From positions 302,678 through 366,677 of the forward strand of contig NGFI01000005.1 of NCBI GenBank assembly GCA_002215645.1: 64,000 bases of DNA, read 5' to 3'. Of the stretch, positions 36,557 to 41,354 are shown piece after piece. The notes below the pieces were generated by a model that was not told the origin of the DNA, did not search any database, and saw nothing but the letters and a program-made list of their open reading frames with translations. The position numbers were made by a program, and so were the translations under genes. How positions within the stretch are numbered: the first letter of the stretch is position 1; every line of letters begins with the position of its first letter. This stretch comes from Gemmatimonadetes bacterium 2013_60CM_65_52. GTDB taxonomy: Bacteria > Gemmatimonadota > Gemmatimonadetes > Gemmatimonadales > Gemmatimonadaceae.

Positions 36557-38407
36557 TTGATCCTGAGGCATCTGCGCTATTTCGCGACCACTGCCGACGA
36601 AGGCGGAGTGACGAGGGCAGCGGCCAGGCTGCGCATGGCACAACCGGCACTGTCCCGGTCGATCCATGATCTCGAGGAGGCGGTCGGAGCAACGCTGCTC
36701 GAGCGGGACAATCGAGGGGTTCGTCTCACTCCGGCCGGCGTCGTTCTTCGAGACGGTATCGACCTCATCCACGCGCACCTGATCGAAGCGTTGCGCCTGG
36801 TCGCGCTGGCGCACGAGGGCAGGGTTGCAACCCTGCGCATTGGGATGAGCCGTGAAGCGCTGCACAGCCACACACTCGGGCGGGTGATCGCGGCCTATCG
36901 GAAGAAATACCCCGACGTGGAGCTCGTCGTCAGCGAGTTACCGATGTCATTGCAGCCGACTGCGCTCAGAGTGGCCGAGGTGGACGGCGCCATCAGTGCT
37001 GGTGGCGAGGACGAGTCGGCGATTCAGTGCGAGACACTCTTTCACGACCGCATCAACAGCGCGATGCTCGCTGTCTCGCACCCGCTTGCCGGCGCGAGCG
37101 CGCTCACGCCGGAAGAGCTGCGGTCGGTGCCCCTTCGGCTCGACGCCAGCTCCGTCGCGCGCTTGCCCGCGCTTCGGACCGCTCTCGATCAGTTGGGCTT
37201 CGCGTGGGAGGAGGTCGACGGAGTGGACACCGCGCTGAGCTATGTCGCAGCCGGGAATGGCTGGCTTCCGGCACTTCGCTCTCTTCAGTCGACGTCGCCA
37301 GCGGGCCTTGCCGTGAAGCCCGTGATCGGGCTGGATGTTCCGGTGCCGATGGTGCTGCGATGGAACAGCGCTCCACCCGGCGCGGCCCTCCAGAATCTGT
37401 TGGCGATTGCGTCGCGCGTCGTCGCGGAGGAAGAGGACGGAGCGTCATCGCCCCGCCGTCGGAGCTCCAGTCCCCGGCTCCAACTCCTGCCCGACGCCTC
37501 CGGCGGCGGAATCGAGCTGCGGCAGCTTCGCGCGCTCGTGACCTCCATAGAGGAAGGATCCCTGAGTGCCGCCGCCACGCGACTCGGCGTCACGCAGTCG
37601 GCCATCTCGCGGCAGGTGCGGAGTCTCGAGGATGCTGTCGGCGTTCAGCTGCTCAACCGCGGCGGGCGACGACTTGTGGCCACTGCCGCCGGCGAAGCGC
37701 TGCGCGGTGCGGCAACTGTAATCCTCGGCATCCTCGACGAAACGTTCCAGCGCGCGCGGGCGACGTCACGCGGCATCACGGCGCGATGCACGATCGGCAG
37801 CGTGCCTCGCGAGCTGACGAATGGCGTGCTCGTGAGTGCCCTTCAGCAGCTCACTCAGCTTCATCCGGAGCTGTCCGTCAGCGTCGTGGAGAATCCGGCA
37901 CCGGATAGCCTGTTCACCCGCGAAGTGGATCTCACCGTCACGTCGATGTTTCCCGGCGCCGTGGACAACCCCATGATCTCGACGGTGTTGTTACGGGACG
38001 ATCCGCTGGACTGTGCCCTTCTCGCCGAGTCGCACCCCTTGGCGAAACGGGAGTGGATTCAGCCGGCGGAGCTGATGGACCATCCCTTCCTGTTCATCTC
38101 CAGGTCGTACGCGCCGAACGCCTACGATCACATCATCGGGGCGCTACAGAAGTTCGGCATTGCTCCGACCATCGGCGGCGAGTTCAATGGAGCGCGCGTG
38201 TTGTGGTCGGTCGTGGCGGGTGGGGATGGGTGGGCACTCGGGACGCGGTCGCTGCGCACCAACCCGCCGGCCGGCATCGTCGCCCGGCCGATCGAGGGAC
38301 TGCACATCCCGTGGGGCGTAGGTCTGATGTGGCGCAAGAACGAGAGCGATCCCGTGATCAAGCAGGTGATCGAAGTGTTCAGAAATCCGCAGCGTTTACA
38401 GGTGTAA
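36557..38407 (+). CDS. Tandem fusion of two LysR-type transcriptional regulators
   Basis: 616 residues containing two complete LysR proteins in one chain. The first unit has a helix-turn-helix at 3-62 (LRHLRYFATTADEGGVTRAAARLRMAQPALSRSIHDLE) and an effector-binding domain to about 295. A Ser/Arg/Pro-rich linker (SSPRRRSSSPRLQLLP) joins a second helix-turn-helix at about 319-378 (LRQLRALVTSIEEGSLSAAATRLGVTQSAISRQVRSLE) and a second substrate-binding domain. I prefer the TTG at 36557 as start because GGAGGGA lies five bases upstream and family homology begins there; an in-frame ATG at 36533 is possible. There is no stop codon or frameshift between halves. It is divergent from the sensor-kinase operon. 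LysR proteins normally act as tetramers of single-unit chains, so the covalent doublet is unusual. Confidence 0.9.
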   Translation: MILRHLRYFATTADEGGVTRAAARLRMAQPALSRSIHDLEEAVGATLLERDNRGVRLTPAGVVLRDGIDLIHAHLIEALRLVALAHEGRVATLRIGMSREALHSHTLGRVIAAYRKKYPDVELVVSELPMSLQPTALRVAEVDGAISAGGEDESAIQCETLFHDRINSAMLAVSHPLAGASALTPEELRSVPLRLDASSVARLPALRTALDQLGFAWEEVDGVDTALSYVAAGNGWLPALRSLQSTSPAGLAVKPVIGLDVPVPMVLRWNSAPPGAALQNLLAIASRVVAEEEDGASSPRRRSSSPRLQLLPDASGGGIELRQLRALVTSIEEGSLSAAATRLGVTQSAISRQVRSLEDAVGVQLLNRGGRRLVATAAGEALRGAATVILGILDETFQRARATSRGITARCTIGSVPRELTNGVLVSALQQLTQLHPELSVSVVENPAPDSLFTREVDLTVTSMFPGAVDNPMISTVLLRDDPLDCALLAESHPLAKREWIQPAELMDHPFLFISRSYAPNAYDHIIGALQKFGIAPTIGGEFNGARVLWSVVAGGDGWALGTRSLRTNPPAGIVARPIEGLHIPWGVGLMWRKNESDPVIKQVIEVFRNPQRLQV

Positions 38408-38490: not shown

Positions 38491-39177
38491 TCAGTCGCGC
38501 AGGTTCCAGAATGCGCTGGTCAAGCCAATGGACCCGAGAAGCGCTTCCGTTTCTTCAAGCGTGTGTCGTCGCCAATCCGGCTTCACCTTATTTCGGTACC
38601 AGCCGTGAGCGAGCTGCCACGTTTGCTCCGGTGTGATGATGGCGCCGCGAGGGAGATCACGGGCGGCACACCATCGGTCGACGTGCTCTTCGTCCCGGAA
38701 GAGCAGCATGGTGCTTCACGTAAAGCCGATATTGTCCCACCAATGGTGCGCTGGAATCGCGAAGTGGACGACGCCCTCACTACGGACTAGACGTTCGTCG
38801 CGCACCTCGAGGGTCATCATGTCTCCGCAATCGCCACACGGTGCGGTGATGACGCCTTCGGTCCCCACAGCGGCCACGATCCCGAGTGCGTCCCAGATGC
38901 AGATGCCCCAGTACTGCCTGCCGCCGGCGGCGACCCGGATACCGGAGGGGACGGCGCAGAATGGATTGGCTGCCCAGATGTTGCCGTCGTTCGGCGCGAG
39001 GATCAGGACCTTCGCCGCGGCGAGCTCGTGGAGAGCTGCGCGAATGTCGGTCTCAGGACGTCCGAGTGCGTGGGCTATATCGGGCGGCTGTGGGACGCGG
39101 CCGGTGGCGGCGGCTTCGCGGAAGATGTGAATGCGAACGTCGCGGAGCAGATTGAGATCCGACACCGGCTCAGTCAT
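38491..39177 (-). CDS. MerB-like organomercurial (alkylmercury) lyase, probable selenoprotein read through UGA
   Basis: A 228-codon reading frame with one internal TGA at 38716-38718 (codon 154). Upstream, an N-terminal winged-helix part (VRIHIFREAAATGRVPQPPDIAHALG) is followed by the MerB catalytic segment with Cys93 and Asp96 (WGICIWDAL), matching MerB Cys96/Asp99. After the TGA the same frame stays open for 74 codons and continues the family (STMLLFRDEEHVDRWC ... LTSAFWNL). The TGA falls where MerB has catalytic Cys159: the Cys93-to-codon-154 spacing is 61, against 63 in MerB. A SECIS-like hairpin follows at once. I read it as selenocysteine at residue 154; the alternative is a nonsense-mutated gene with Cys lost. 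ATG 39177 is chosen over upstream ATGs (39207, 39285), which add unrelated sequence. Expected role: protonolytic cleavage of carbon-mercury bonds. Confidence 0.7.
38668..38714 (-). promoter_or_regulatory. Candidate bacterial SECIS element (selenocysteine insertion hairpin)
   Basis: Directly 3' of the in-frame UGA the mRNA can fold into two stacked stems. The lower stem pairs GCACCAU (38714-38708) with AUGGUGU (38674-38668), six Watson-Crick pairs plus one G-U. The upper stem pairs UGCUCUUC (38705-38698) with GAAGAGCA (38691-38684), eight perfect pairs, closed by the hexaloop CGGGAC. The loop starts 18 nucleotides after the UGA and has G among its first two bases, both within the accepted bacterial SECIS geometry. 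Confidence 0.6.
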
Positions 39178-39326
39178 CCGAGTGAATCGTAATTCAGGTA
39201 GCGGCATGTGGCCAAGTCGTGCCGGGGGGGGCGCGAGGCTCGATATGAGCGCATCGGCGAGGGACACGCGACAGAAGATCAACACTCACGTGGCGTGTCG
39301 GCGCGCGACCCGCGAACTTGCGCGGC

Positions 39327-39866
39327 ATGGCGCTCACCGCAACGGTCTACAACTTCGACGTTCAACTCGCTGACGTCGACCGGGGCGTATACGAAGTACT
39401 CTCCTTCCGCGCGGCGCAGCAGCCGTCAGAAACGGAGGAGTATCTCCTGTCGCGCGTGCTGGCGTACTGCCTCGAGTACGCCGAAGGCATCAGCTTCTCC
39501 AACGGTATTGCGGAGCCCGACGTGCCGGCCCTCTCCGTGCGCGACCTCACAGGTGCGATGCAGGTCTGGATCGACGTCGGTGCTCCCGACGCCGCGCGAC
39601 TTCACAAGGCCAGCAAAGCGTCTCCGCGCGTCGTGGTCTACACGCATCGGGATGCGGCTCGACTGGCATCTCAACTCTCCGGGGAGCGCATCCACCGGTC
39701 GGAGGCGCTTGAACTTTACGGAATCGACCGCGCGCTCATCGACGGTTTGATGGCGCACCTCGATCGGCGCAACACGTGGGAGATGTCCGTCACCGACCGT
39801 CATGTGTACGTGACGGTGCAGGGGGAGACGGTGGAGGGAGATGTGACAAGGACGCGGCTTGGGTGA
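39327..39866 (+). CDS. YaeQ family protein
   Basis: 179 residues. The start MALTATVYNFDVQLADVDRGVYEVLSFRAAQQPSETEEYLLSRVLAYCLEY is characteristic of YaeQ, as is EPDVPALSVRDLTGAMQVWIDVGAPDAARLHKASKASPRVVVYTHRD. The fold is PD-(D/E)xK nuclease-like with the acidic pair at EPD and D in WIDVG, but nuclease activity has not been established for the family. ATG 39327 is used because homology starts there. It stands alone between the divergent MerB-like gene and a convergent lipoprotein. Confidence 0.93.
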   Translation: MALTATVYNFDVQLADVDRGVYEVLSFRAAQQPSETEEYLLSRVLAYCLEYAEGISFSNGIAEPDVPALSVRDLTGAMQVWIDVGAPDAARLHKASKASPRVVVYTHRDAARLASQLSGERIHRSEALELYGIDRALIDGLMAHLDRRNTWEMSVTDRHVYVTVQGETVEGDVTRTRLG

Positions 39867-39883: not shown

Positions 39884-40447
39884 CTACCGCGACTGGACCT
39901 TGAGCACGAATTGGTTGGATACTCGTTGGTCGAGGCGTAGGGTGTCCCTCGCTCCGCCAGCGTTCGCCGGGTCGGTTGCGTATCCAACGTTCCACACGAT
40001 CCGGTACAGGCCGGGAATGTCCGGTGTGGAGAAGCGCGGCCCGCAATTGCAATCGGGATAGCCGCCGAAGACGCTGATGTCAAAGACGTGCGTTCGACCC
40101 GGAAGCACAACGATTGGCGGACCGTAGCAGAGGAGCACGGCGGGCGACCACACCGACTGCCAGACGGTTCCGACGAGCTTCTCGAAGGTGAAGCTGGTTG
40201 ATCCGCGACAATTCTCGAAGCTCGTGGCTCGCGTCGTCCCGTTGATGTAGGTGACGACGAGCGATCCATCGTAGCCGATCACGCCGGCGTTCAGTGTGTA
40301 GGCCGAGGAGTCGGTCTGGAAGTGTGCGGCGGAATCGCGCGTACTGGTGGGCACCGTGTCCGTGCTACACGACGAGGCCAGCGCGATCGCCAACGTGAGT
40401 GCGAGGCACCTTGCTCGTCCGTTCCAATTCGGCGTGCAATGGGACAC
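39884..40447 (-). CDS. Hypothetical lipoprotein
   Basis: 187 residues with a GTG start preceded by GGAGG. The N-terminus is basic then hydrophobic (ARCLALTLAIALASSC) with a lipobox at LASSC. The mature part is beta-rich, with a segment ending VVLPGRTHVFDISVF and a DIPGLYRIVWNVGY strand pair that recall the Ig-like bulky-strand folds of extracellular binding modules (intracellular-inhibitor/BsuPI-like). Six cysteines in the mature region (ENC, LLC, DCNC and others) could form disulfides. It overlaps nothing and is not evidently in an operon. The function is unknown. Confidence 0.75.
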   Translation of the reverse strand: MSHCTPNWNGRARCLALTLAIALASSCSTDTVPTSTRDSAAHFQTDSSAYTLNAGVIGYDGSLVVTYINGTTRATSFENCRGSTSFTFEKLVGTVWQSVWSPAVLLCYGPPIVVLPGRTHVFDISVFGGYPDCNCGPRFSTPDIPGLYRIVWNVGYATDPANAGGARDTLRLDQRVSNQFVLKVQSR

Positions 40448-40456
40448 CTGGCCTCC

Positions 40457-40660
40457 TTAGATCAGCCACGGCTGAAACATGCCTTCGTAAGGCGTGCCGC
40501 GACAGCGCCACTGCTCCGCGCGAAAAGGATCCTCGATGCGCGCCTCTGCTGAGAGCCAATCCACCATCATGCCGAACCTCAGCCACCATCCGATCGTCAC
40601 GGGGTTGCCGTATCGATATACCGGCACCCAAACTCTCACCCTATATGTCGGCCTTGACAT
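40457..40660 (-). CDS. Small hypothetical protein, uncertain
   Basis: A 67-codon frame immediately upstream of the lipoprotein gene, in the same direction and with a nine-base gap. The peptide is Trp-, Arg- and Tyr-rich (RVRVWVPVYRYGNPVTIGWWLRFG) with no signal peptide, and matches no family I know. Its ATG overlaps the HigB promoter on the other strand and has no ribosome-binding site. It is listed because it fills the gap in register with its neighbour, but it may not be expressed. Confidence 0.3.
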   Translation of the reverse strand: MSRPTYRVRVWVPVYRYGNPVTIGWWLRFGMMVDWLSAEARIEDPFRAEQWRCRGTPYEGMFQPWLI

Positions 40661-40681
40661 ATATCAGTCGCGACATAGTTT
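40654..40681 (+). promoter_or_regulatory. Candidate sigma-70-type promoter of the HigBA module
   Basis: TTGACA at 40654-40659 is a perfect -35 hexamer; a weak -10 (TAGTTT) lies at 40676-40681 after 16 bases. Transcription would begin near 40688, a few bases before the GTG at 40696, so the toxin mRNA would be nearly leaderless. The site also holds ATATGTC/GACATAT, an inverted repeat (about 40644-40662) that could bind HigA. Confidence 0.45.
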
Positions 40682-40695
40682 TGCTGTTGGCGTCC

Positions 40696-41031
40696 GTGGA
40701 TAAACCACTCGTCTGGCTCAGTGGTGAGATCAAGACGCCACCATTCTCGGCGGCTGCGCGGTGTGAAGCGGGTGTGTTGCTCCGACAGCTTCAGGCCGGC
40801 GTGAAACTTGGGATGCCGCACTCACGACCGATGTCGTCCATCGGCGTGCGGTGCCATGAGCTTCGGATCGTCGATGACAACAAGACGTGGCGTGTGGTCT
40901 ACAGGCTCGATCCGGACGCGGTGATCATTGCAGACGTATTTCAGAAGACAACACGACAAACGCCCGCGCGGGTCATTGCTGCGTGTACGCGGCGCCTCAA
41001 GCGGTACGATCAGGTAACTCGGGAGGACTGA
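40696..41031 (+). CDS. HigB/RelE-type toxin (Gp49-like)
   Basis: 111 residues. The family pattern is plain: DKPLVWLSGEIKTPPFSAAARCEAGVLLRQLQAGVKLGMPHSRPMSSIGVRCHELRIVDDNKTWRVVYRLDPDAVIIADVFQKTTRQTP, followed by a C-terminal RRLKRYDQ helix. This group of phage-derived Gp49/HigB proteins are ribosome-dependent mRNA interferases. I prefer the GTG at 40696 because homology begins there and the likely promoter lies just before it; an in-frame ATG at 40645 sits upstream of that promoter. The HigA antitoxin follows after two bases, so the order is toxin-first as usual for higBA. Confidence 0.88.
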   Translation: MDKPLVWLSGEIKTPPFSAAARCEAGVLLRQLQAGVKLGMPHSRPMSSIGVRCHELRIVDDNKTWRVVYRLDPDAVIIADVFQKTTRQTPARVIAACTRRLKRYDQVTRED

Positions 41032-41033
41032 AC

Positions 41034-41354
41034 ATGGATGCCAAAAAGCGGAAGCGGCTCGAAGCGGCAGGCTGGAGTGTCGGGGATGCGAAAGACTTCC
41101 TCAAGCTGACGCCGGAGGAGGTGGCGTTGATCGAAATGCGACTGGCCCTGAGTCAGGCCCTTCGTGAACGGCGTCTGGAGAGTGGGTTGACGCAGATGAC
41201 GCTTGCCAAACAGCTCGGGTCGAGTCAATCGCGTGTCGCGAAGCTCGAGGCTGCGGACGCGAGCGTCTCTCTCGAGCTGTTGATCCGTGCGCTCCTCGCA
41301 GTCGGCGCCAGTCGGAGGGATGTCGCACACGCACTGGCGCGCCGGATCGCCTAG
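41034..41354 (+). CDS. HigA-type antitoxin, XRE helix-turn-helix
   Basis: 106 residues with a GGGAGGA site before the ATG. The N-terminal third (KRKRLEAAGWSVGDAKDFLKLTPEEVALIEMRLALSQALRERR) is the typical antitoxin lead-in; the remainder is an XRE/Cro helix-turn-helix (LTQMTLAKQLGSSQSRVAKLEAADASVSLELLIRALLAVGAS). It neutralises the toxin encoded two bases upstream and would repress the shared promoter. Confidence 0.9.
   Translation: MDAKKRKRLEAAGWSVGDAKDFLKLTPEEVALIEMRLALSQALRERRLESGLTQMTLAKQLGSSQSRVAKLEAADASVSLELLIRALLAVGASRRDVAHALARRIA

Follow-up and report, generated by a model that had tools for sequence, protein, structure and literature searches.

A predicted SECIS-directed selenocysteine at the catalytic position of a MerB-family subfamily

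A gene of the MerB family in a 64-kb stretch of bacterial DNA (64,000 nt; hereafter the window) carries an in-frame UGA that is, with high probability, a selenocysteine (Sec) codon whose insertion is directed by a bacterial SECIS element. The element is a stem-loop directly downstream of the UGA and within the coding region (Table 1). The host SelA, SelB, SelD and tRNA-Sec would decode the UGA as selenocysteine at the position of the catalytic Cys159 of MerB, and we infer that SelB binds the short hairpin, whose loop lies 18 nt past the UGA, and reads it as the bacterial SECIS. By conservation, the working part of this SECIS is the upper stem and the loop only. The MerB triad would thus be retained as Cys96, Asp99 and Sec159.

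Table 1. Coordinates of the MerB-family gene, its catalytic codons and the hairpin in the window
Feature	Position	Strand	Remarks
MerB-family coding sequence with in-frame UGA	38491..39177	-	start ATG at 39177, 228 codons; the terminal TGA is at 38493-38491
In-frame UGA, predicted Sec, residue 154 from ATG	38716..38718	-	aligned with the MerB Cys159 position
Cys96-equivalent codon, residue 93 from ATG	38899..38901	-	C in 60/60 full-length TGA rows
Asp99-equivalent codon, residue 96 from ATG	38890..38892	-	D in 60/60 full-length TGA rows
5' arm of lower stem	38708..38714	-	pairs here; pairing not conserved in the family
Upper stem and loop CGGGAC, conserved SECIS part	38684..38705	-	fold, covariation and homologue counts
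3' arm of lower stem	38668..38674	-	pairs here; pairing not conserved in the family

With the TGA read as a residue, the protein matches the Pfam MerB profile PF03243 at an E-value of 3.2e-26 (92.2 bits against a gathering cut-off of 27), and its homologues align with it from end to end. Alternative in-frame starts are possible further upstream, to position 39285. In a phmmer alignment, the UGA faces the sole Cys of the corresponding stretch of MerB2 (structure 5c17), which we take to be the catalytic Cys159 position. PMC8261052 gives Cys96, Asp99 and Cys159 as the essential residues of MerB, and PMC4525700 models their roles. Both Cys96 and Asp99 are present in all 60 full-length homologues with TGA, with the Sec codon in the place of Cys159, and the residue preceding Sec is Thr in 58 of these 60. 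The protein therefore resembles the MerB lyases (PF03243; 3f0o, 1s6l and 5c17) in its fold family, scored above the Pfam cut-off, and in triad positions 96, 99 and 159, but differs from them in having Sec at position 159, in scoring below the NCBIfam MerB cut-offs and in that no mer operon is seen around it. A structure model predicted from 4 rows (aligned sequences) is poor, with a mean pLDDT of 59.1. Foldseek searches with this weak model returned 11 matches at E < 0.001, all of them MerB structures with TM-scores to the query of 0.33-0.39, so that the model would support the fold family only.

None of the NCBIfam models claims this subfamily. The MerB equivalogs NF009710 and NF033555 reach 27.9 and 20.7 bits against cut-offs of 193 and 200 bits, respectively, and the SaoL model NF040728 reaches 25.1 and 26.2 bits against a curated cut-off of 140. 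On the part of the protein that precedes the UGA, no NCBIfam model scores higher than the last of these values, which raises the question of whether the protein is a SaoL of the known selenocysteine-assisted organometallic (SAO) system. SaoL is likewise a MerB relative and a selenoprotein: a MerB-like selenoprotein is listed in two reviews (PMC9312934, PMC13188914), and the later name for it, SaoL, is given in PMC13188914. Membership in that system is nevertheless improbable, given bit scores far below the cut-off and a motif that is CU in the review (PMC13188914) but TU here. Furthermore, no SAO-like operon is seen, and no neighbour family is shared by more than 4 of 25 loci, in a comparison that clustered the neighbours rather than seeking Sao genes by name.

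A literature search over titles and abstract starts returned no published description of a Sec-containing MerB of this kind. The main texts of PMC2398784, PMC12013277 and PMC5029168 hold no MerB or alkylmercury entry, and the 2021 mer-gene survey (PMC8261052) contains no word starting with 'seleno'. Judged from these texts, a MerB-fold subfamily whose catalytic site carries Sec, widespread in at least two phyla, is probably, though not provenly, new and unreported. The mechanism of Sec insertion is the known bacterial one.

Homologues of the gene came from several searches. Of the 99 related genomes searched first, 12 had a match, and the strong matches mostly carry exactly one TGA. Profile searches matched 71 of 395 genomes from the phylum of the window and 12 of 297 genomes from the Acidobacteriota, the phylum of the genome with locus L024, 10 of these 12 with one TGA. 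A scan of named contigs added five loci from metagenome-assembled genomes labelled Candidatus Sulfotelmatobacter, Deltaproteobacteria, Acidobacteriota, Acidobacteria and Actinomycetota, of which the Actinomycetota match is short, at 35%; the TGA-bearing record labelled Deltaproteobacteria is L025. In the resulting 85-row alignment, the codon at the catalytic column is TGA in 67 rows, TGC in 15, TGT in 2 and TGG in 1, so that 67 TGA codons are paired with 17 Cys codons and one Trp codon at a conserved site. Rows gapped at this column (L094, L095, L101, L102 and one L027 fragment) were dropped, L022 and L028 have no row, the match G244:C61 was left out, and L029-L035 and L151, which are second copies of genes already present, were excluded from the counts. 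The 60 full-length TGA rows have a median pairwise identity of 38% and exactly one TGA each.

The tree and the codon analysis omit those rows that fall below 185 residues, 13 of the 85. In the tree of the remaining 72 rows, which contains the long branches L100 and L162, the Sec and Cys states need three changes, and a nine-row Cys clade (L018, L042-L045, L052, L055, L064 and L076) is nested among the Sec rows. Support for this placement is modest, at 80/68 for the fork joining the clade to a Sec group and 86/85 one fork up. The clade comprises the closest Cys relatives and is distinct from the Sec rows in three respects: TGC replaces TGA, the SECIS stem is mostly lost, and Asp99 is replaced by Cys in nine of nine rows, giving a C-x-x-C site.

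The hairpin was proposed in a first-pass annotation of the sequence, and both of its stems and its loop are indeed present on the minus strand at 38714-38668. The lower stem joins the two arms listed in Table 1 through seven pairs, one of them G-U, and the upper stem consists of eight perfect pairs (38705-38698 with 38691-38684) closed by the loop CGGGAC at 38697-38692. The placement claimed for the loop is likewise borne out, with 18 nt between the UGA and the loop and a G at the second loop position. This small apical loop with a G agrees with the small apical loop and conserved guanosine described for bacterial SECIS elements in PMC1088965, and it lies within the 16-37 nt past the UGA that the first-pass annotation gives for such elements. 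The minimum-energy fold of 38660-38720 on the minus strand contains both stems, with an energy of -24.3 kcal/mol (z -2.53) that 4 of 200 shuffles matched; a hairpin on the plus strand was rejected, the fold there being unremarkable (z 0.09). Of the 1601 TGAs in the window, counting both strands, 5.8% have a comparable stem after them, defined as at least 8 pairs and a loop 16-37 nt past the TGA with a G among its first two bases; under tighter limits the share is 1.8%. Given this baseline, the single-sequence fold stands out only mildly, and it is the homologues that carry the case. Rfam gives no match within the 64-kb window.

Among the homologues, the upper stem is maintained as an RNA structure in the TGA rows. 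Scored for the family as seven pairs counted from the closing pair of a GGUC loop, it is paired in 87.6% of cells across 54 distinct TGA rows, with 27 cells changed on both sides. By each of three measures (paired cells, both-side changes and covariation score) it surpasses all 500 shuffles and all slid versions of the stem, in tests that ignore the relatedness of rows and in which Cys rows also exceed most shuffles on some measures. The first-pass annotation had reasoned that Cys homologues keeping the same stems would point to coding constraint. The upper stem is instead mostly gone from 15 Cys rows, a result in favor of the SECIS reading: 53.3% of cells are paired there, and some slid versions do equally well. 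Contiguous stems of 5 or more pairs occur in 61 of 62 distinct TGA rows versus 2 of 18 non-TGA rows, these two being the Cys rows L020 and L076, with stems of 5 or 7 pairs. Codons change in pairs across the two arms of the upper stem (CTC/GAG, TTC/GAA, GCC/GGC, GGC/GCT and CTG/CAG), and in L156/L157 the CTG/CAG change replaces E by Q in the protein and preserves the stem. RNAalifold predicts only 5 pairs on the TGA rows, all belonging to the upper stem; for the Cys rows it predicts no pairs.

The lower stem behaves differently: 52.9% of its cells are paired in TGA rows versus 64.8% in Cys rows. Since its pairing is no better in TGA rows than in Cys rows, it reflects coding rather than SECIS function, and it is ruled out as a part of the SECIS at the family level. 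Of the two stems in which the first-pass annotation advised looking for compensatory changes, the upper one shows them, and its argument from 15 kept paired positions holds for the upper stem but fails for the seven lower pairs.

The loop is conserved at the level of its codons. A GGUC loop closed by C-G is found in 60 of 66 TGA rows, with the loop Arg codon being CGG in 59 of 60 rows and the loop Ser codon TCG in 57 of 57; these two codons rank second and first, respectively, among 36 conserved degenerate columns for codon freezing. By comparison, non-TGA rows mostly lack both the stem and the CGG-TCG loop codons. The frozen loop codons together with the conserved stem argue for selection on the RNA, not on the protein alone. 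The family element has in common with known bacterial SECIS elements its position just after an in-frame UGA, a small loop with G, a compensatory upper stem and the presence of the machinery in the genome. It is distinct in its C-G-closed GGUC loop, replaced by CGGGAC in the window, and in its unconserved lower stem. At the single locus with TGG (Trp) at the Sec site, L160 of genome G574 from the Acidobacteriota search, Ser stands at the Cys96 site and the frozen loop codons are lost; this looks like a changed or dying copy.

The genome of the window encodes SelA, SelB, SelD and a tRNA-Sec (69.6 bits, anticodon UCA), so the Sec machinery is complete. The SelD gene adjoins the tRNA-Sec gene and carries an in-frame TGA of its own; ARAGORN finds no tRNA within the 64-kb window, and the tRNA-Sec gene lies elsewhere in the genome. 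SelB was found in 49 of 52 genomes with TGA versus 4 of 11 genomes with Cys (Fisher p 5.9e-5 for SelB against codon, a value that ignores genome relatedness and is based on three SelB candidates scored per genome). The three TGA genomes with no SelB match (G398, G365 and G258) are 81-85% complete. This distribution is consistent with Sec having been given up in those genomes that no longer have the machinery. At two loci, L110 (G274) and L112 (G389), SelD has Cys and the MerB-like gene still has UGA.

Soil bacteria contain variant tRNAs that read UGA, and such a tRNA could in principle decode the codon as Cys or Trp, a reading with which the TGG of L160 would agree. That copy, however, is also without Cys96 and looks decayed or changed, the window's own genome has the standard tRNA-Sec (UCA) with SelA, SelB and SelD, and the same gene terminates with TGA. 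We consider decoding by a variant tRNA very unlikely.

Ordinary annotation would read the gene as two open reading frames, at 38716-39285 and 38491-38709, as would be expected of a decaying pseudogene or a sequencing error, with the UGA acting as a premature stop and the stem arising from chance or coding constraint. Equally good stems after 1.8-5.8% of window TGAs also accord with such an origin. Against it stand the TGA at the same site in 67 of 85 rows, the single TGA per gene in 60 of 60, the synonymous sites frozen in the loop, and a dN/dS after the UGA of 0.066-0.158 in four of five pairs, the fifth pair being saturated. The conservation of the TGA across rows and the low dN/dS downstream of it strongly disfavor a pseudogene, to which we assign a minimal probability. 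Just as small is the probability that the UGA is a true stop with a restart at the AUG at 38709-38707, yielding a two-piece protein: the second window frame does begin with an ATG 6 nt past the UGA, but ATG occupies that codon in only 29 of 67 TGA rows (ATC, ATT, TAC or TAT in the others), so that a restart fails to explain the family, and it would forfeit catalytic position 159 though C96 and D99 are invariant.

For the window sequence itself, the weakest point in the reading of the UGA as a Sec codon remains its deviating loop. In the window's gene and at loci L021, L024, L025 and L027, the Ser codon TCG of most rows is replaced by an Asp or a Gly codon, and the loops of this subclade are CGGGAC, CGGGAU or CGUGGA, not the GGUC of the family; L046, from another clade, has the loop CGGGCG. 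A 6-pair core stem is preserved in the subclade (L012, L021, L024, L025 and L027), and no both-side compensatory change was seen among its five stems. Because the core stem is kept and the pairs tested show purifying selection after the UGA, the UGA is very probably still read in the subclade. The hairpin loops at the SelD loci of related genomes are varied, so that these genomes may not require a strict loop sequence. The SelD hairpin of the window's own genome was set aside as evidence, since its minimum-energy fold lacks a clean loop.

Genomic context ties the gene to no pathway at the loci compared. No gene family is shared by the neighborhoods of more than 4 of 25 loci (20 fetched loci, four others and 20 kb of the window, with crude ORF calling and with L013 being a shorter copy of the same place as L150). 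Neighbors were clustered with each other, mer families were scanned for by name within the window only, and no link to a mer operon was seen at the loci compared. MerA above the curated cut-off occurs in 5 of 30 TGA genomes and in none of the 5 Cys genomes tested, and is absent from the window's own genome. A mer operon or conserved partner genes were accordingly rejected as the setting of the family, the link to MerA being weak (5/30).

Several other genes were observed along the way. A YaeQ-family gene at 39318-39866 (+) is divergent from the MerB-like gene. At 36560-38407 (+), a 615-residue frame holds two HTH_1 and two LysR_substrate domains and is an apparent head-to-tail fusion of two LysR-type regulators. 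A Gp49-like (DUF891) protein followed by an HTH protein at 40399-41354 (+) looks like a toxin-antitoxin pair of the HigB/HigA type. In one genome only, a MerA-like flavoprotein disulfide reductase (L164, G160:C26:57700-59214) reads GGTUVNEGC, its TGA replacing what we take, from the motif, to be the first redox-active Cys; it is a possible Sec disulfide reductase.

The Cys96-Asp99-Sec159 triad suggests a chemistry of the MerB type with a selenolate. By analogy with MerB, the Cys thiolate and the selenolate would bind a soft metal or metalloid center and the Asp would protonate the leaving carbon. Replacement of Asp99 by Cys upon Sec loss may point to a functional coupling between the acid and the selenolate. 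We infer, with moderate confidence, that the protein most likely functions as an organometal(loid) lyase that depends on Sec and works outside the mer operon; that organomercury is its main natural substrate appears rather unlikely. A broader proposal, which we put forward tentatively, is that these proteins may be widespread MerB-fold selenoenzymes of at least two phyla, in which a Cys/Asp/Sec triad cleaves carbon-metal(loid) bonds outside mer, Asp99 changes to Cys at the loss of Sec, and the SelB of the window subclade tolerates a loop other than GGUC.

Selenolates have a higher affinity than thiolates for mercury and other soft metals. Sec as a catalytic ligand in the organomercurial-lyase fold is therefore chemically pointed, and its presence there predicts a better carbon-metal lyase or a metal trap. 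Because ordinary annotation reads two broken frames, genes of this kind are probably missing from catalogues in two phyla. The natural Sec and Cys forms of the protein provide a ready comparison at the same catalytic site.
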